Shown piece after piece: positions 27,455-36,548 of a DNA stretch of 64,000 nucleotides. Below the pieces are notes generated by a model. That model ran no database searches, was not told the DNA's origin, and saw only the letters and a program-made list of their open reading frames with translations. The DNA is from Bacteroidota bacterium. GTDB lineage: Bacteria > Bacteroidota > Bacteroidia > Chitinophagales > Chitinophagaceae. The stretch's first letter is position 1. Each line of letters begins with the position of its first letter. The position numbers and the translations under genes were made by a program. Location: the NCBI GenBank assembly GCA_013285915.1, contig JABDGS010000003.1:1-64000 (forward strand). The letters run 5' to 3'.

Positions 27455-29059
27455 ATGAAGAAATTAACGACTTGCCTTTTAATGGCCCTTTGTATAGGCT
27501 TAATTGCCTCTGCGCAAATACAAACGGGCGAAAATGTTGCCGTTACCAATACCGATGCCGGTAAGGTACGTGGCTACATTCACAACACTATCTATGCTTA
27601 TAAGGGCATACCTTATGCCGAAGCAAAACGATTTGAAGCTGCACAAAAACCTAAGCCATGGCAGGGTGTACGCAGCAGTATGACCTATGGGCCGGTAGCT
27701 TTATTGGAAACCCCAACAACAAGTGTGCAGGATGAAAGCGAATTTGTATTTAACCACAGCTGGGGTTATGCCAGCGAAGACTGCATGCGGCTGAATGTGT
27801 GGACACCGGGCATTAACGATGGCAAAAAAAGGCCCGTGATGTTCTGGATACATGGCGGAGGTTTTACTGCAGGCTCATCACAGGAGCTGCCTTCTTACGA
27901 CGGCGAAAGCCTTGCAAAAACAGGTGATGTGGTTGTAGTGTCAATCAACCACCGTTTAAATGTTCTTGGTTATTTAGACCTTTCTGCTTACGGCGATAAA
28001 TACAAACATTCGGCCAACAACAGCATCCTGGATATTAAAGCTGCACTGGAGTGGGTTAAAGCAAACATTGCCAATTTTGGTGGCGACCCTAACAATGTTA
28101 CTATTTTCGGGCAATCGGGCGGCGGTGCTAAAGTAAACACGCTTATGGCTATGCCATCTGCAAAGGGGTTGTTTCATAAAGCTATTAACGAAAGCGGCGC
28201 TTTTCGTACAAACATGCTTGACAAAGCTACTACGCAATCAATAACAGCTGAGGTTTTGAAGGCACTGAATATAGACCCAAGCAATATTGACAGCCTGCAA
28301 AGAGTACCCTTTCCGTTACTGGTTGAAGCCGGCAGAAAAGCGCTTAAAATTACTGCCGACAAAATGAAGGCTGCAGGCCACCCACCTACAGGTTTTGGTT
28401 TAGGTTGGGGGCCAAGCCTTGATGGCGAAGATCTGCCTTACCAGGTTTCGTCAAAAGAGGCATTTGATCTGTCGAAAGATGTGCCCCTGATGATCGGCAC
28501 GGTGAAAAATGAGTTCGGCGGATTTGCTACACTTGGCATGGCTGATGCATCGCTTGACAAGGTAATGGACTACATAAAAAACCAGCGTAAAGACAAAGCT
28601 GATGCATATGTGGCTGCCGTTAAAAAAGCTTACCCTAACGATACCAAGCCCGTAGATCTGATCAACGTGGATGTAATGTTTCGCCCGGGTGCCGTATCAC
28701 AGGCCAACCAAAAATCGCAGGTGGCTGGTGGTGCACCTGTTTATGTGTACCTGTTTACATGGCAATCGCCTGTTATGGATGGCAAATACAAAGCAGTGCA
28801 TTGTATGGAATTGCCGTTTGTGTTTAACAACATAGCACATTGTGAAGAAATGACCGGTGGTGGAAAAGAAGCTTATGCACTTGCCGATAAAGTAAGTAAG
28901 GCATGGATAAATTTTGCACGTACGGGTAATCCAAATCATAAAGGTTTGCCACAGTGGCCAGCATACAACACAACAAATACAGCAACCATGCATTTTGATA
29001 ACCAATGCGCAGTAATGCCTCAGATGGATAAAGAATTGTTTGATTTGGTGGCGCAATAA
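27455..29059 (+). CDS. Type B carboxylesterase/lipase family enzyme, secreted
   Basis: The signal peptide ends in ASAQ. The alpha/beta-hydrolase hallmarks of the type B family are visible: EDCMRLNVWTP, the oxyanion-hole WIHGGGFTAGSS, the nucleophile elbow FGQSGGGAK (normally GESAGG, here GQSGGG with the Ser kept), the acid in GTVKNEFGGF and the His in AVHCMELPFVF. At 534 residues it is the usual length. The Ala-to-Gly change in the elbow is mild. It is followed by a bidirectional-looking terminator. It probably cleaves esters outside the cytoplasm; the substrate is open. Confidence 0.9.
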   Translation: MKKLTTCLLMALCIGLIASAQIQTGENVAVTNTDAGKVRGYIHNTIYAYKGIPYAEAKRFEAAQKPKPWQGVRSSMTYGPVALLETPTTSVQDESEFVFNHSWGYASEDCMRLNVWTPGINDGKKRPVMFWIHGGGFTAGSSQELPSYDGESLAKTGDVVVVSINHRLNVLGYLDLSAYGDKYKHSANNSILDIKAALEWVKANIANFGGDPNNVTIFGQSGGGAKVNTLMAMPSAKGLFHKAINESGAFRTNMLDKATTQSITAEVLKALNIDPSNIDSLQRVPFPLLVEAGRKALKITADKMKAAGHPPTGFGLGWGPSLDGEDLPYQVSSKEAFDLSKDVPLMIGTVKNEFGGFATLGMADASLDKVMDYIKNQRKDKADAYVAAVKKAYPNDTKPVDLINVDVMFRPGAVSQANQKSQVAGGAPVYVYLFTWQSPVMDGKYKAVHCMELPFVFNNIAHCEEMTGGGKEAYALADKVSKAWINFARTGNPNHKGLPQWPAYNTTNTATMHFDNQCAVMPQMDKELFDLVAQ

Positions 29060-29131: not shown

Positions 29132-30367
29132 CTAAAATTTTTGCGCTTTGGCACTGCTATCCCCTAAAAGTAAATTGGCATCTGCGGGCTCACGCAATAA
29201 AATACTTTTTTCATCAAGCAGGCTTTTCAATCTTTCATCCCTAATAGTATCTAATAGTTCATTCTTTAAATAAAATGTTTGTGTAGCACCATCCGTTTTA
29301 TGCCATTTAATAATTTTGCAACTACAGCCAGCATTTTCAGGCGTATTGATAACTTCTTCTACTTGCCCGCCACTGCCTTGTTTTATAAATACCTCGCGTA
29401 TGCCGATAATGCGGTTTTTATTCCCCTCGTCAAAATTCCAGGAGGCTGAAATTACGCTGACCAATTGCTTTTGTTCACCCAGCCGCATTAAAGAAAGTTT
29501 GGGCGATTCAATGCTGTCTTTGCCATTCTCCACACGAGAATGGATTGAAACCAGCCAGGGCGACTCGTACTGCATATAACCAATATGATCGAAATTAGAG
29601 CCGTACCGTTTAAAGGTAAAATAGCCGTCTTTGTATTTCACATCCGTAATGTTTGATACTATTTTATGATAACGCCCGGGGTCATAACTTCTTGCTTGTG
29701 GCGAACCAGTATAGCAAAGCCATATACCCGCAAGGCTGTCAATTTCAGCGGGCGATACTTTATAGGGAACAATGCCTAAATCCTGTTTTGTTGTGTCAAG
29801 CTGCTTTTTTACTGCAAGCCAGTTAAATAACGCCACCACCATAACAATAAAAACTACTATAAAGCCTGCGAGCAAATACCGCCTTCCTTTGGCAGCAACT
29901 GCAGGTTTCATTTCCTGTTTTGTATTTTCAACAACAACAGGAACAGTTTCATCAAGCAGGTTTGGGTCAGTTGGTTTTTTAGCAAATGCTTTTCTACCCA
30001 TTCCAAATAAGTATATATAACAGGCATCCACCAAAAACGGTCTTGGCTTACTTACTATTCCATTAATGGCATCTTTTACCTGGCCGCCGGTTATATCATA
30101 TTTATGTAAGGGGTATTCAGTGTTGTTTTTATTTTCGTCGGGTGGGTAATTATCATGGCCCAGGGTTTCGCTCGTTTCAGGTAAACGGTTGCTTATTTCA
30201 CTTAGCACGCGGGCGAGATCTTCATAGTTCTTGCGGTTGGTGTTTAACTTAATACCTTGTCCGGTATCGGCTTCGTACCGGGCAATTACTTTCGCCAGCA
30301 GGTAAACAATTTCATCTTTCCCGGTTTTAAGCTTCATATTGCTGGTATTGCCTTTTATTAACGCCAT
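29132..30367 (-). CDS. Hypothetical single-pass membrane protein (411 aa)
   Basis: Counting from the ATG at 30367 (MALIKGNTSN) the protein has a cytoplasmic N-terminus of about 150 residues with the phrase LLAKVIARYEADTGQGIKLN, one transmembrane helix near residues 165-185 (LLAGFIVVFIVMVVALFNWLAV) and a large C-terminal part with no recognised motif. The start 20 codons upstream is less likely. It is a single gene, read toward the convergent carboxylesterase gene. I do not know the family. Confidence 0.6.
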   Translation of the reverse strand: MALIKGNTSNMKLKTGKDEIVYLLAKVIARYEADTGQGIKLNTNRKNYEDLARVLSEISNRLPETSETLGHDNYPPDENKNNTEYPLHKYDITGGQVKDAINGIVSKPRPFLVDACYIYLFGMGRKAFAKKPTDPNLLDETVPVVVENTKQEMKPAVAAKGRRYLLAGFIVVFIVMVVALFNWLAVKKQLDTTKQDLGIVPYKVSPAEIDSLAGIWLCYTGSPQARSYDPGRYHKIVSNITDVKYKDGYFTFKRYGSNFDHIGYMQYESPWLVSIHSRVENGKDSIESPKLSLMRLGEQKQLVSVISASWNFDEGNKNRIIGIREVFIKQGSGGQVEEVINTPENAGCSCKIIKWHKTDGATQTFYLKNELLDTIRDERLKSLLDEKSILLREPADANLLLGDSSAKAQKF

Positions 30368-30490
30368 TTTATTGTTTCGGGAATGTTTCCGAAACAGCGC
30401 AATGAATTTATATACTATTCCGCACAAGCAAAAATAATAGCAGGCAGCTACTTACTGTAAATTTGTTTCGGCCCTCTAAATTACTGCTGT

Positions 30491-32521
30491 ATGAAAATGC
30501 CTAAATGTTTACAAACTGGCCCGGTTGCCTGCCTTTTTATTTTGCTGTTTTTTAGTGCGCGGGCACATGTTACAAGGATTGAAATTACCAAAGTTGAATC
30601 GCCTTATAACAGCGGCATGGTTTATGGGGCCGCAGGCCAATATGAAAGAATATTTGGTAAAGCCTACGGCGAGGTTGACCCAAACAATGCGCTGGATACT
30701 ATTATACAGGATATTAAACTTGCACCCCGCAATGCCCATGGCATGGTTGAATATGTTACCGAATTTATTTTATTGCGCCCTGTAGATATAAGCAAAAGCA
30801 ACAAACTTTTATTTATAAGCCTGCCAAACCGCGGCAATGTTTTTCCTGCAGATACAGCACTTTTAAAGCGGGGTTATATATATTTATGGGCAGCCTGGCA
30901 GGGAGATATTATTGCCGGGAACAACCGGTTGACAATAAACGTGCCTGTTGCAACTGACAATGGCCGGGAAATAACCGGCAAAATAAGGGTGGAGTACGAA
31001 GTGAACGAACCCACCAAAACGCTTGTATTAAGCAGCGGCTATTTTAATGGTGCAACGCACCATGTATACGAAACAGTAACCACAAACAATACCGGGCTTG
31101 TATTATCAAAACGAGTGCACGAGGCTGATGAAAGAATTGCTATACCTAACAACGACTGGGCTTTTGCGGACTGCACCACCGCTGATTTTCCGGGAATACC
31201 AAATACCACAAAAGTATCAGTGAAGGGTGGCTTTGATCCTAATTATATCTACGAGCTTATATATACCGGTAAAAATCCCCTGGTGATGGGGCTGGGTTTT
31301 GCGGCAATAAGAGATTTAGCTTCTTTCATGCGCCACCAAGTAAAAGATGGTGCGGGCAACCCTAATCCCCTTACAACAACTACAGATAAATCTGTACCCG
31401 TGAAAGCTGCCATTATGCAGGGTATTTCGCAATGCGGCAATTTTACCCGCACATTTTTACAGCTTGGTTTTAATGAAGATGAAAACCACAGGATTGTTTT
31501 TGAAGGGGTGAACGATCATATTGGCACCCGCCGTATATCACTAAATATCCGTTTCGGCAGGCCTGGTGGTGGCGGCATACAACGGGAAGATCACCTGTTT
31601 CCCAGCAACGAGCCGCCCTTTACATGGGACAATACCTATGAGCCTATATCGGGCATTCATGGCGGTATATTGGAAAAATGCATTAAAACAAGCACAGCGC
31701 CTAAAATAGTACAAACATTCAGTTCCTCTGAATACTGGCAACTGCGCGCATCACTGCGCACCACTAATTCTTACAGTACTAAGGACATTGCAATTCCATC
31801 CAATGTGCGGGTATATCTTTTTAACAGCACGCAACATGGCCCGGTTGAAATGGCTGACAAGGTTAGCGGGTTTACAACAAACGGCAATTCCTACACACCT
31901 TACCTGCGGGCATTGATTATTGCACTGGAGCATTGGGTTATGGATGGCAAACAGCCACCTGCCAGTATTTATCCTACGATAGCTAAAGGCACGCTGGTAA
32001 AGCACGACAAAACTTCAATGGGCTGGCAAGGTATACCGGGTGTGCTATTTAACGGCAACGCTAATGATGGACCCCTGATTGATTTTGGGCCGGCATATAA
32101 TACAAAAATGGTTACCGGTATTTTACAAGAGCCACCAACGGTTATAAAGGATAAATACTACCGTGTACTTGTGCCAAAAGTTGACGCAGACGGCAATGAA
32201 ATTGGCGGCATACGCAGTGCTACTTTACAGGCGCCTTTAGGTACATATACAGGTTGGTCGTTACGGAAAGAGGGCTATGGCCAGGGTGACCTTAACGGGC
32301 TTAACGGTATGTTCATACCTTTTAAAACTACAAAAGCAGAACGAATAGCAACCAACGATCCAAGGTTATCACTTGAAGAAAGATATCAAACACATGGGGG
32401 TTATGTAGCTGCGGTAACCAAAGCCGCAAATAGTCTTGTAACACAAGGTTTGCTATCGCCTGAAGATGCAGCTAATATTATTGCTGCAGCAGAAAAAAGC
32501 ACCGTTTTACAATCAAAATAA
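30491..32521 (+). CDS. Secreted alpha/beta-hydrolase domain protein (Abhydrolase_10-like)
   Basis: The 676-residue protein starts with a signal peptide (to about ARAHV). It has the look of the large alpha/beta-hydrolase proteins of the Abhydrolase_10 group. Near residue 310 the phrase MQGISQCGNFTRTFLQLGFNED holds the likely elbow G-I-S-Q-C-G, and after it the loop GRPGGGG. The catalytic acid and His cannot be fixed by eye. Substrates are unknown in the family. It heads a five-gene unit with spacing of 7, 36, -4 and 1 bases. Confidence 0.75.
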   Translation: MKMPKCLQTGPVACLFILLFFSARAHVTRIEITKVESPYNSGMVYGAAGQYERIFGKAYGEVDPNNALDTIIQDIKLAPRNAHGMVEYVTEFILLRPVDISKSNKLLFISLPNRGNVFPADTALLKRGYIYLWAAWQGDIIAGNNRLTINVPVATDNGREITGKIRVEYEVNEPTKTLVLSSGYFNGATHHVYETVTTNNTGLVLSKRVHEADERIAIPNNDWAFADCTTADFPGIPNTTKVSVKGGFDPNYIYELIYTGKNPLVMGLGFAAIRDLASFMRHQVKDGAGNPNPLTTTTDKSVPVKAAIMQGISQCGNFTRTFLQLGFNEDENHRIVFEGVNDHIGTRRISLNIRFGRPGGGGIQREDHLFPSNEPPFTWDNTYEPISGIHGGILEKCIKTSTAPKIVQTFSSSEYWQLRASLRTTNSYSTKDIAIPSNVRVYLFNSTQHGPVEMADKVSGFTTNGNSYTPYLRALIIALEHWVMDGKQPPASIYPTIAKGTLVKHDKTSMGWQGIPGVLFNGNANDGPLIDFGPAYNTKMVTGILQEPPTVIKDKYYRVLVPKVDADGNEIGGIRSATLQAPLGTYTGWSLRKEGYGQGDLNGLNGMFIPFKTTKAERIATNDPRLSLEERYQTHGGYVAAVTKAANSLVTQGLLSPEDAANIIAAAEKSTVLQSK

Positions 32522-32528
32522 ACAATGC

Positions 32529-33404
32529 ATGAAAATCTTACGCTTATTAATTGCAATCACCAGTGTTTTACAAGGGCTGCTTTGCAATGCCGCTAGTACA
32601 GATACAATCTCTATACGCAGTGAACCCATGGCCAAAACCTATAAGGCGGCTATTGTACTGCCCGATAGCTACACAAAAAATAACAACAATTACCCCGTGC
32701 TGTATTTATTGCATGGCGGCTATGGCCATTTTGATGACTGGCTGAGAAAGACACCAGATAATATGCTTGTGAAGAACCTGGCAGACCAATACAACATCAT
32801 TATAGTAATGCCTGAAGGAGAAGTATTCAGTTATTATTGGGATAGCCCTGTTGATGCAGCCAGCCAGTTTGAAAGCTATATAACGCAGGATGTTGTTATG
32901 GCTATTGACGCAAAGTACCGCACGGTGCGCAGTAACAAAGGCAGGGCTATCACCGGCCTGTCAATGGGTGGCTATGGGGCATTGTATTTAGCGGCGCGGC
33001 ACCCTGATATATATGGTGCAGCAGGCAGCATGAGCGGCGCGATGAACCCCGACATGGAAGGCTGGAAAACAGATGCAACCAGGGCGGCAGGCATTAAAAA
33101 GGAGTTTGAAAAAAAGCTTGGCCCAATGGAGCAAAACGCGGCGCTGTTTGCCGCAAAGAGTGTGCTTAACATGGCTGATACATTAAAGGCCAATGGCACA
33201 AAAATTATTTTTGATTGCGGCGTAGATGACTTTTTAATTGAGCCTAACCGTGAGCTGCATAAAAGGCTGATGGCCAATAAAACTCCCCACGATTATTCTG
33301 AGAGGCCTGGTACACATGCCTGGGAGTATTGGCAAAACTCGTTGCCTTATCATTTACTGTTTTTCTCAAAAGTATTAAAGGCCAATGGTGTGGCTGTTTT
33401 ATAA
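32529..33404 (+). CDS. Secreted esterase, D/FrsA-like alpha/beta hydrolase
   Basis: The ATG at 32529 gives a signal peptide (LLIAITSVLQGLLCNAAS); the ORF-track start is 21 residues upstream and overlaps the previous gene. The 291-residue protein has the esterase-D style core: YPVLYLLHGGYGHFDDW, the elbow GLSMGGYGALYLA (Ser nucleophile), an Asp in FDCGVDDFL and the His in RPGTHAWEYW. This family cleaves acyl esters and thioesters, including feruloyl, S-formylglutathione and tributyrin-type substrates. It is likely extracytoplasmic and part of the same unit as the gene before it. Confidence 0.88.
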   Translation: MKILRLLIAITSVLQGLLCNAASTDTISIRSEPMAKTYKAAIVLPDSYTKNNNNYPVLYLLHGGYGHFDDWLRKTPDNMLVKNLADQYNIIIVMPEGEVFSYYWDSPVDAASQFESYITQDVVMAIDAKYRTVRSNKGRAITGLSMGGYGALYLAARHPDIYGAAGSMSGAMNPDMEGWKTDATRAAGIKKEFEKKLGPMEQNAALFAAKSVLNMADTLKANGTKIIFDCGVDDFLIEPNRELHKRLMANKTPHDYSERPGTHAWEYWQNSLPYHLLFFSKVLKANGVAVL

Positions 33405-33440
33405 ATACCTGCATAACGCATCATAAAAAACAGTTCATCC

Positions 33441-34736
33441 ATGCTTACATTTTTGGGCTTTGCAACCATCATTGTTTTTTTACTGCTTATATTAACAAAG
33501 CGACTATCGGTGCTGCTCTCTCTAATAATCGTCCCTATTGTATTTGCACTTATTGGAGGCTTTGGCGTGAAGGAGTTAGGAGACATGATGATAGCCGGTG
33601 TAAAGCAGGTAGCACCTACCGGCATTATGCTGATATTTGCCGTGCTGTATTTTGCGGTTATGATTGATACGGGATTATTCGATCCTGTAATTGCGGGTAT
33701 TATACGAATAGTAAAGGGCGACCCTTTAAAAATAACCATAGCAACGGCGGTATTAACTATGATAGTGCACCTTGATGGAGACGGCACCGCTACGTTTATG
33801 ATAACCATTTCAGCATTGCTGCCGGTGTACAAAAAAATGGGCATGAACAGGCTAATACTGCCATGCATTGTTGCGTTGAGTGCTGGTGTAATGCACCTGG
33901 TGCCGTGGAGTGGTACGATGGCCCGCGCCATGAATGTAATGCATACAGATGCGAAAGGTTTATTAGTGCCCATGCTGCCATCTATGATTGGGGGCATAGT
34001 ATGGGTATTGGCAGTTGCATTTTGGCTGGGTAAAAAGGAGCGTAAACGGATTGGCATTATTACGCTTGATTATAATTATCAACAGGAACTTTCTGACAAA
34101 CAAAAAAACATACGCCGTCCGAAGCTTTTTTTGCTAAACGTTATTTTTACTGTAGTCCTTGTTGCATCCCTTATAATGGCTTTGCTGCCGCCTGCGGTAC
34201 TTTTTATCACGGGTTTTTCAATAGCGTTATTAATAAATTATCCAACGCAAAGCGAACAAAAGAAGAGGCTTGCGGAGCATGCCGCTAATGCCTTCTCTGT
34301 TTCCGTTATCATTTTTGCAGCGGGCATTTTTTCGGGCATATTGGCCGGCACTAAAATGATTGATGCCATGGCTTCGGCGTTTGTGTCACTTATACCACAA
34401 CAGCATGCGGGTTATTTGCCCGTTGGGGTTGCTGTTACGAGCACGCCTTTAAGCCTTGTGTTTACACCTGATGCATATTATTTTGGTGTGCTGCCTGTAT
34501 TAAAAACAGCGGCAACGCATTATGGTTTGCAGGCTATTGAGGTGGGCCGCGCAGCCATTACCGGGCAAATGACGGTGGGTTTTCCCATAAGCCCGTTAAC
34601 TGCATCTACTTTTGTCCTTATCGGGCTATCGGAAGTTGAATTGGCAGACCATCAGAAGTTTACCTTTAAGTGGGCATTTGGCACTACAATAGTTATGACG
34701 GTTATCGCGGTTTTAACGGGAGCTATTCATATATGA
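33441..34736 (+). CDS. Citrate-type H+ symporter, CitMHS family
   Basis: CitMHS carriers import citrate or related hydroxy- and tricarboxylates as metal complexes with protons. The 431-residue protein has about eleven hydrophobic segments and the CitMHS feature MIVHLDGDGTATFMITISALLPVYKKMG near residue 105, with VMHLVPWSGTMARA following. The C-terminal half (VSTPLSLVFTPDAYYFGVLPVL-like) also fits. Its stop overlaps the ATG of the AtuA gene by four bases (ATGA), so translation is coupled. The actual substrate is unproven. Confidence 0.9.
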   Translation: MLTFLGFATIIVFLLLILTKRLSVLLSLIIVPIVFALIGGFGVKELGDMMIAGVKQVAPTGIMLIFAVLYFAVMIDTGLFDPVIAGIIRIVKGDPLKITIATAVLTMIVHLDGDGTATFMITISALLPVYKKMGMNRLILPCIVALSAGVMHLVPWSGTMARAMNVMHTDAKGLLVPMLPSMIGGIVWVLAVAFWLGKKERKRIGIITLDYNYQQELSDKQKNIRRPKLFLLNVIFTVVLVASLIMALLPPAVLFITGFSIALLINYPTQSEQKKRLAEHAANAFSVSVIIFAAGIFSGILAGTKMIDAMASAFVSLIPQQHAGYLPVGVAVTSTPLSLVFTPDAYYFGVLPVLKTAATHYGLQAIEVGRAAITGQMTVGFPISPLTASTFVLIGLSEVELADHQKFTFKWAFGTTIVMTVIAVLTGAIHI

Positions 34737-36055
34737 AAAATAAAATACGCATAGGTTGCGGCGCTGGTTTTTCAGGCGACAGGTTAGAGCCTGCACTTGT
34801 TCTTGTTGAGAAAGGTGGGCTTGATTATTTGGTGCTCGAATGCCTTGCCGAACGTACCATAGCACTCGCGCAAAAAAGAAAACTACAGGATGCAAACAAA
34901 GGTTATGATCCGTTACTTGAACGAAGGATAAAACTATTGCTGCCATTATTAATAAAAAACAATGTTCGCTTAATAACCAACATGGGTGCAGCTAACCCGC
35001 TTGCAGCGGCTAAGGCCATCATTAGCATTGCGCATTCACTAAACATAAGTGTAACCGTAGCAGCAGTTACAGGTGATGAGGTTTTGGATAAGATTGATAT
35101 AAATGCGGCGGCACTGGAAACGAATACTCCCATTGCAGGTTTTGGCAATATCATTTCAGCAAACGCATATTTGGGTATTGATGCCATTATACCAGCCTTA
35201 CAAACAAATGCTAATATCATCATAACCGGCAGGGTTGCCGACCCATCGTTATTCCTCGCTCCAATGGTATTTGAATTTGGGTGGAACAAGAATGATTTTG
35301 ATATTTTAGGGAAGGGCACTGTAACAGGTCACTTGCTTGAATGTGCGGGGCAAATCACCGGTGGTTACTTCGCAGACCCGGGAAAAAAGGACGTACCCAA
35401 TATGGCAAGCCTCGGCCACCCTTTTGCCGATGTGCATGCAGACGGCACAGCACATATCGGCAAAGTTGACGGCACAGGCGGCACCATCAATTTACAAACA
35501 GCGAAGGAACAATTGCTGTATGAAGTTGTAAACCCTTATGAATATTACACCCCTGATGTTGTGGCCGATTTTACTACGGTACATTTAAAACAGTATGGCG
35601 AAAATATAGTAAGCATAACCGGCGGTGGCGGACAGCAAAAACCGGCGACGTATAAAGTAAGCGTAGGTTATCAATCGCATCATCTTGGTGAAGGTGAGAT
35701 TTCGTATGCTGGAAGTAATGCACTGGCGCGCGCGCAATTAGCCGGAGGGATTATTTGTGAAAGGCTGCAAGGGCAAGTGGATGATGTAAAGATTGATTAC
35801 ATGGGTTGCACGTCTGTACACCAAACAAGTTTCAATAATGATGCAAAGCCCTATGAGGTTCGCCTGCGTGTGGCCGCAAAAGCAACTACACCTGAATTTG
35901 CAGCACTTGTTGGTGAAGAAGTTGAAGCGCTTTATACCAATGGCCCGGCAGGTGGCGGGGGAGTAAGAAAATATGTAACAGAAGTAATTGGCATTGTTTC
36001 AACATTGATTGACCGCAAACTAGTTTCACCATCAGTTACAGTAATTCATAGCTAA
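34733..36055 (+). CDS. AtuA-family protein (DUF1446)
   Basis: The start at 34733 (MKNKIRIGCGAGFSGDR) overlaps the CitMHS stop; the ORF-track start is internal to that gene. The 440-residue protein shows the AtuA pattern: GCGAGFSGDRLEPA near the start, DYLVLECLAERT, TNMGAANPLAA, ITGRVADPSLFLAP and the Gly-rich tail YTNGPAGGGGVRKY. AtuA was named for acyclic terpene utilisation in Pseudomonas, but its reaction is not settled, and copies are found with organic-acid genes in many phyla. It probably acts on the acid taken up by the CitMHS carrier. Confidence 0.88.
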   Translation: MKNKIRIGCGAGFSGDRLEPALVLVEKGGLDYLVLECLAERTIALAQKRKLQDANKGYDPLLERRIKLLLPLLIKNNVRLITNMGAANPLAAAKAIISIAHSLNISVTVAAVTGDEVLDKIDINAAALETNTPIAGFGNIISANAYLGIDAIIPALQTNANIIITGRVADPSLFLAPMVFEFGWNKNDFDILGKGTVTGHLLECAGQITGGYFADPGKKDVPNMASLGHPFADVHADGTAHIGKVDGTGGTINLQTAKEQLLYEVVNPYEYYTPDVVADFTTVHLKQYGENIVSITGGGGQQKPATYKVSVGYQSHHLGEGEISYAGSNALARAQLAGGIICERLQGQVDDVKIDYMGCTSVHQTSFNNDAKPYEVRLRVAAKATTPEFAALVGEEVEALYTNGPAGGGGVRKYVTEVIGIVSTLIDRKLVSPSVTVIHS

Positions 36056-36056
36056 T

Positions 36057-36356
36057 ATGAAACTCTACGATATAGCACACAGCCGCGCAGGGGATAAAGG
36101 CGATACGCTTACACTATCCCTTATTCCTTACAAAGAAGAGGACTATAGTTTGTTATGCAATGCCGTAACTGCTGATAAGGTTAAAACACATCTATCGCAA
36201 ATTGTAAAAGGAGAAATAATACGTTATGAGCTGCCAAATATTTCTTCACTGTTATTTGTTTGTAAGCAGGCATTAGGCGGAGGCGTAACAACCTCGTTAA
36301 GATTGGATGCACACGGCAAAACACTTAGCTATGCTTTGCTTGAAATGGAGATGTAA
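36057..36356 (+). CDS. AtuA-related small protein
   Basis: This 99-residue protein begins one base after the AtuA stop. It starts MKLYDIAHSRAGDKGDTLTLS and ends in GGGVTTSLRLDAHGKTLSYALLE, the signature of the short AtuA partner, which is fused to AtuA in some organisms. The conserved RAGDKGD may bind a phosphate or a metal, but this is inference. It likely forms one enzyme with the preceding subunit. Confidence 0.88.
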   Translation: MKLYDIAHSRAGDKGDTLTLSLIPYKEEDYSLLCNAVTADKVKTHLSQIVKGEIIRYELPNISSLLFVCKQALGGGVTTSLRLDAHGKTLSYALLEMEM

Positions 36357-36548
36357 ACAATATTCTGTGCTTTTTTGCGCGAAGCACTTTTATACAACCG
36401 TTTCGCTTCCTCGTTTTTGAACACAGGCTGCCATTGACCTTTGGACGAAGTTTTACAGAGTTTTTTAAATTGATAAATGTACATGTAGTTTTAGTGCAGG
36501 AAGATTTGAGAACCCGGAGTGAGCGCCTTTCAGTACTTGCCAAAATAA

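Follow-up and report, generated by a model that had tools for sequence, protein, structure and literature searches.

AtuA-like proteins are widespread, yet the only function that the accessible literature offers for them is a proposed one in the utilization of acyclic terpenes. In the Atu pathway of Pseudomonas and Thauera, AtuA has been proposed, though not directly proven, to split acetate off 3-hydroxy-3-isohexenylglutaryl-CoA, a 3-substituted 3-hydroxyglutaryl-CoA. A relative is also found among solved structures, since PDB entries 9erq and 9evf are annotated both as 'Acyclic terpene utilization AtuA family protein' and as 'Citramalate lyase, subunit A (cmlA)', 9evf being entitled 'Citramalate lyase - ADP - pyruvate complex'; the bound ADP hints that a nucleotide may take part in the reaction. 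Two further systems bear on the present locus, namely the CitMHS citrate:proton symporters and the HMG-CoA lyase of leucine and mevalonate catabolism, which splits the skeleton of 3-hydroxy-3-methylglutarate (HMG) and yields acetoacetate. A literature search found nothing on DUF4387, on CitMHS together with AtuA, or on cmlA. The type of lyase and the carrier discussed below are already known, while for the cassette, and for the putative HMG lyase of the AtuA family that it may encode, we found no description in the literature.

We have analysed a window of 64,000 nucleotides from a member of the Bacteroidota, in which five genes follow each other on the + strand (Table 1). The gaps of 7, 36, −4 and 1 bases given in the first-pass annotation are confirmed by the coordinates of the open reading frames, as is the overlap of stop and start between the carrier gene and AtuA, an ATGA at 34733–34736. 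The same motif is common in related loci, where the carrier gene ends in ATGA in 40 of 111 cases and the AtuA gene in 75 of 117. The assignment of the products to two esterases, a citrate-type carrier, AtuA and a small partner likewise holds by Pfam and NCBIfam profile scores, and the AtuA match to PF07287 spans positions 1–436 of the 437 in the profile. Signal peptides had been claimed for both esterases, and their N-termini are indeed signal-like as judged by eye. The region contains ten terminator-like hairpins where shuffled sequences would give 8.1, so that the one past the last stop codon is a weak candidate.

Table 1. Features of the esterase-CitMHS-AtuA locus and its flanks in the window
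Feature	Coordinates	Strand	Profile match and remarks
COesterase gene (PF00135)	27455-29059	+	328.7 bits; signal-like N-terminus
Divergent gene, one-helix membrane protein	29132-30427	-	no Pfam/NCBIfam match
Abhydrolase_10 (PF20091) esterase gene	30491-32521	+	116.7 bits vs cut-off 23; elbow GISQCG
PF00756 esterase gene	32529-33404	+	134.2 bits vs cut-off 22; elbow GLSMGG
CitMHS carrier gene	33441-34736	+	TIGR00784, 553 bits vs cut-off 260
AtuA gene (proposed lyase large subunit)	34733-36055	+	PF07287, 478.7 bits vs 22.8
AtuA ferredoxin-like small protein gene (proposed lyase small subunit)	36057-36356	+	PF23544, 121.8 bits vs 27
Terminator-like hairpin with T tail	36367-36387	+	starts 11 bases past last stop

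The operon and its gene order are more than chance, as the order recurs in many genomes. We have compared 139 non-redundant loci, of which 125 carry an AtuA at least 50% identical to that of the window, while the other 14, below 50% identity, belong to a sister subfamily and served as control. The 125 relatives come from Bacteroidota, Bacillota and Pseudomonadota; CitMHS stands beside AtuA in 111 of them and in none of the 14 control loci, and the small gene adjoins AtuA in 117. All ten Chitinophagaceae loci outside the window contain CitMHS, AtuA and the small gene, and the same core is found on plasmids of several groups and in some haloarchaea. Comparison of gene order with other Bacteroidota genomes, a check proposed in the first-pass annotation, finds the order conserved and the esterases present in varied combinations. 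Scanning of genome contigs with a single sequence found nothing, whereas a profile scan was successful. In the phylum Bacteroidota, 152 of 396 sampled genomes encode AtuA-like proteins. Within Chitinophagaceae the distribution is patchy, with AtuA in 11 of 249 sampled genomes and two genomes of the same genus lacking it. The genome to which the window belongs, a draft that is 63% complete, holds one AtuA gene. In the AtuA tree the window protein belongs to a group of 24 rows with good support, in which every row is from Bacteroidota or is the window itself, and one stray Bacteroidota row lies among the Pseudomonadota.

The functional unit is probably larger than the five genes first described. 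A COesterase gene lies upstream, parted from the operon by one divergent gene, and it probably belongs to the set because in a related metagenome contig (L036) a COesterase stands directly in cassette order, the sequence there being divergent gene, COesterase, Abhydrolase_10, PF00756, CitMHS, AtuA and small gene. COesterases also recur in the cassette of other genomes, L022 and L206 being further examples.

The nature of the AtuA pair was investigated through profile and structural comparisons. An AtuA profile matches 9erq and 9evf with E=1.1e-4 when built on 11 sequences and with E=2.7e-7 when built on 50. AlphaFold models of AtuA and of the small protein, with mean pLDDT values of 92.8 and 86.4, each gave a sole match below E=0.001: the former to chain A of 9evf (E 9.3e-25, TM 0.73) and the latter to chain B of the same entry (E 1.1e-4, TM 0.68). 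Since each partner independently matches a different chain of a single complex, the evidence that they form the same kind of enzyme is strong, and the pair very probably makes up a two-subunit enzyme of the citramalate-lyase type. No close solved structure for AtuA was found, and its structural alignment with the solved citramalate lyase has only about 16% identity; some invariant residues, namely G165, R166, D169, P170, Y262, E263 and P267, fall on identical residues of that enzyme as alignment positions. ETV6 fusions and other proteins that came up as sequence matches of the small protein were judged to be due to chance. The modelled fold makes an acetate-releasing lyase the most likely function, and the acetate release also proposed for the terpene-pathway AtuA fits such a family. 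If this is true, the AtuA family gains a reaction class and two domain families are joined into one lyase.

The pair differs from the known relatives in several respects. In comparison with the solved citramalate lyase it is remote in sequence, it is coupled to CitMHS and esterases, and its substrate is probably HMG. As for the Atu pathway, whose AtuA is of the same Pfam family, the window encodes two separate proteins with a proposed free-acid substrate; the Thauera AtuA, with 615 aa, would fit a fused form of both. The acyl-CoA enzymes of that pathway are absent from the cassette, as had been claimed: neither geranyl-CoA carboxylase, citronellyl-CoA dehydrogenase nor the hydratase was found among its open reading frames and Pfam matches. 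HMG-CoA lyase, on the other hand, acts on a CoA thioester, releases acetyl-CoA and belongs to another protein family.

The esterase elbows read earlier in the two operon products (Table 1) are borne out by conservation, the elbow serines and candidate triad partners being invariant or nearly so among homologues. In Abhydrolase_10, S313 and H449 are invariant in an alignment of 12 proteins; the catalytic-type Ser, Asp and His are conserved over 40 homologues of the PF00756 esterases, and S221, E353 and H449 of the COesterases are invariant or nearly so among 36 proteins. Matches of the Abhydrolase_10 sequence to Sex-lethal and others were judged to arise by chance. An esterase gene lies on the same strand within 6 kb in 78 of the 99 Bacteroidota loci, in contrast to none of the 14 control loci. 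Outside this phylum, a homologue of Abhydrolase_10 with 37% identity adjoins CitMHS-AtuA in Sphingomonas, and a betaproteobacterium locus combines Abhydrolase_10, an SsuA-like binding protein and AtuA. Esterases also recur with AtuA in Microvirga and in Bacillales. Such variety in number and family suggests that ester cleavage is genuinely needed.

Altogether, we consider it likely that the cassette converts an ester through import and a lyase reaction. The esterases, presumably exported, would free a tertiary hydroxy-polycarboxylate from an ester outside the cytoplasm, the CitMHS protein would import the freed acid, and AtuA with its small partner would cut it to acetate and an oxoacid. The sequence of external ester, imported acid and AtuA drawn in the first-pass annotation thus remains the best reading, given the conserved order and the recurrence of varied esterases, although the favoured acid is another one and the unit is larger. 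Esters of citrate, hydroxy-acid and tricarballylate types had been proposed for testing; HMG is better inferred than citrate or tricarballylate from acetoacetate and HMG-CoA gene neighbours. HMG as the most likely acid would yield acetate and acetoacetate, the latter to be activated by acetoacetate-CoA ligase or 3-oxoacid CoA-transferase. Since citrate, HMG and citramalate resemble one another in structure, a CitMHS carrier is plausible for each, and the window carrier, well above the TIGR00784 cut-off, may perhaps transport HMG instead of citrate.

If acetoacetate is the product, two unrelated enzymes that activate 3-oxoacids are expected in the same position, as is found. An acetoacetate-CoA ligase gene lies 3 bases past the small gene in L061 and directly past it in L062; a fused 3-oxoacid CoA-transferase lies 7 bases past it in L066 and one gene further than directly after it in L207, and CoA-transferase A and B follow the small gene in the alphaproteobacterium Azospirillum thermophilum. 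Loci with such an enzyme next to AtuA are a small minority, which does not include the window; in the draft genome itself a CoA-transferase is encoded on a different contig, and no acetoacetate-CoA ligase scores above cut-off. Among Spirosomataceae a ligase or CoA-transferase occurs in 76 of 76 genomes with AtuA against 113 of 147 without (p=2e-7, or p=9e-4 once one AtuA-free genus is removed), these genomes being not independent and the CoA-transferase model also catching an aromatic-pathway enzyme. The ligase alone has no link to AtuA in this family after removal of that genus (p=0.86), and we regard the genome-level association as weak support for acetoacetate. At close range, an acetoacetate enzyme lies within 2.5 kb of AtuA in 4 of the 76 genomes, these cases being partly related to each other, where roughly 0.12 are expected from copy counts in listings and mean genome size. 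CoA-transferases upstream in Spirosoma were rejected as acetoacetate enzymes, one of them sitting inside a pca (protocatechuate) cluster; they are not counted for HMG but are mixed into the genome-level tally and into a 20-kb figure, and because of this admixture of pca-type enzymes only the 2.5-kb figure is used.

Genes of HMG-CoA metabolism are also found next to AtuA. In the haloarchaeon Salinigranum marinum the gene of a degradative HMG-CoA reductase overlaps AtuA by four bases. On a plasmid of this organism (L227, 5730-9160) the reductase, AtuA and its partner share one overlapping operon with a protein of 156 aa that matches no Pfam family, a gene content that suggests breakdown of mevalonate or HMG in this haloarchaeon. 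In L147 (3959-8047) and L137 (4215-8544), AtuA is directly preceded by genes for an archaeal-type HMG-CoA synthase and a thiolase; these loci, near aspartyl-tRNA-synthetase-like genes, belong to the sister subfamily (about 37% identity), and the synthase neighbours may be there for other reasons. In bacteria, free HMG is reported to be depleted by Snodgrassella alvi, which grows faster in its presence and gives off acetate, the first two steps being unannotated (PMC11343714); an AtuA pair that cleaves HMG to acetate and acetoacetate would provide such a step. The whole scheme with HMG as its acid is what we would choose, with slightly better than even confidence. More tentatively, and just short of an even chance, the AtuA pair would be a free-acid HMG lyase and the cassette a dedicated route for HMG esters, such as lignan-HMG oligomers or HMG-flavonoid glycosides, in several phyla, with a related pair supplying the missing HMG step in other bacteria. 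If true, this would describe a way for bacteria to live on HMG esters, and the AtuA pair would become a candidate for the steps from HMG to acetate that are unassigned in S. alvi, a honey-bee symbiont.

Under the same scheme, the acid could be citramalate or another 2-substituted malate, cut by AtuA to acetate and pyruvate or another 2-oxoacid. Both 9erq and 9evf, the only relatives with a solved structure, bear the name citramalate lyase, and one of them contains bound pyruvate. In glutamate-fermentation clusters an AtuA-type gene adjoins methylaspartate ammonia-lyase, the fate of citramalate there being then unknown (PMC4682846). A further point in favour is a plasmid locus of Salipiger abyssi (L223, 27-9056), in which AtuA and its partner are accompanied by a CoA ester lyase, two CoA transferases, two MaoC dehydratases and a TRAP carrier, and which may represent a C5-dicarboxylate variant of AtuA use. 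Citramalate would, however, leave no role for an acetoacetate-CoA ligase directly past the AtuA pair and would not explain the HMG-CoA reductase and synthase neighbours, and the solved enzyme is remote in sequence; we consider it an unlikely substrate. Citrate, for instance from phenolic citrate esters, is the nearest analogue of HMG, and the carrier scores above the cut-off of the citrate:proton symporter model; AtuA would then be a citrate lyase releasing acetate and oxaloacetate. Citrate, however, enters the TCA cycle directly, which would make a dedicated lyase wasteful in an aerobe, and it too does not account for the acetoacetate and HMG-CoA neighbours, so that this reading appears improbable.

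The esterases and the CitMHS-AtuA core could also have separate functions and be together by chance or through shared regulation only. Exported esterases are common in Bacteroidota, and no esterase is seen near the core in 21 of the 99 Bacteroidota loci or in most of the other loci, some of which are cut by contig ends; such core loci without esterase also count against the reading in which ester cleavage feeds the lyase. Nevertheless, esterases of several families are found repeatedly, in differing orders and across several phyla, in contrast to their absence from the 14 control loci, and a mere coincidence seems quite improbable. Least probable is that the esterases serve 3-hydroxybutyrate polyesters or oligomers, with the acetoacetate enzymes beside AtuA used for 3-hydroxybutyrate and AtuA in some other role, as could be thought from the 3HB-oligomer hydrolase that follows AtuA in Microvirga (in one case also with a tannase-type esterase) and from the PHB-depolymerase-type esterases that occur with AtuA in Bacillales. 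This monocarboxylate does not match the carriers, which belong to CitMHS or to the tripartite tricarboxylate proteins; it is no tertiary hydroxy acid, is unsuited to the citramalate-lyase fold, and is accompanied by no recurring 3-hydroxybutyrate dehydrogenase.

Returning to HMG esters, their possible source was considered from the genes around the cassette, which in several lineages stands beside genes of aromatic-acid catabolism. Genes of the pca/pobA type accompany it in L206 and L068, an aromatic-acid symporter is near it in L062 and, by similarity, in L049, where acyl-CoA synthetase and enoyl-CoA hydratase also occur, and L207 has a catechol-dioxygenase-like protein nearby. This gene content suggests phenolic plant esters. 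In the flax seed coat, lignan units are joined through HMG by ester bonds (PMC5116464), and use of this lignan-HMG polymer by the window operon is a speculation. In L206 (340-7310), from a relative of Spirosoma, the genes pcaG, pcaB, fused pcaDC and pobA, a fused CoA-transferase and a pcaF-type thiolase lie directly beside the esterase-AtuA cassette.

Other genes accompany the cassette less regularly. A signal-bearing Amidohydro_2 enzyme, perhaps a lactonase, lies inside it in L014, L016, L018, L020 and L184, often between CitMHS and AtuA; this secreted enzyme of several Chitinophagaceae loci was considered and explained nothing further about the cassette. The divergent gene of the window is single-copy in its genome and encodes 431 aa with one likely membrane helix. 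Its homologues (45-64% identity) occur in about a dozen Bacteroidota loci, next to the first esterase gene and on the strand opposite to it, and a role as a membrane-bound regulator would be speculative. In L014, L022, L023, L040, L045, L048, L056 and L058 the gene divergent from the first esterase encodes a Nudix protein with an NrtR-type winged helix (PF21906 in L045), likely a regulator other than the candidate of the window.
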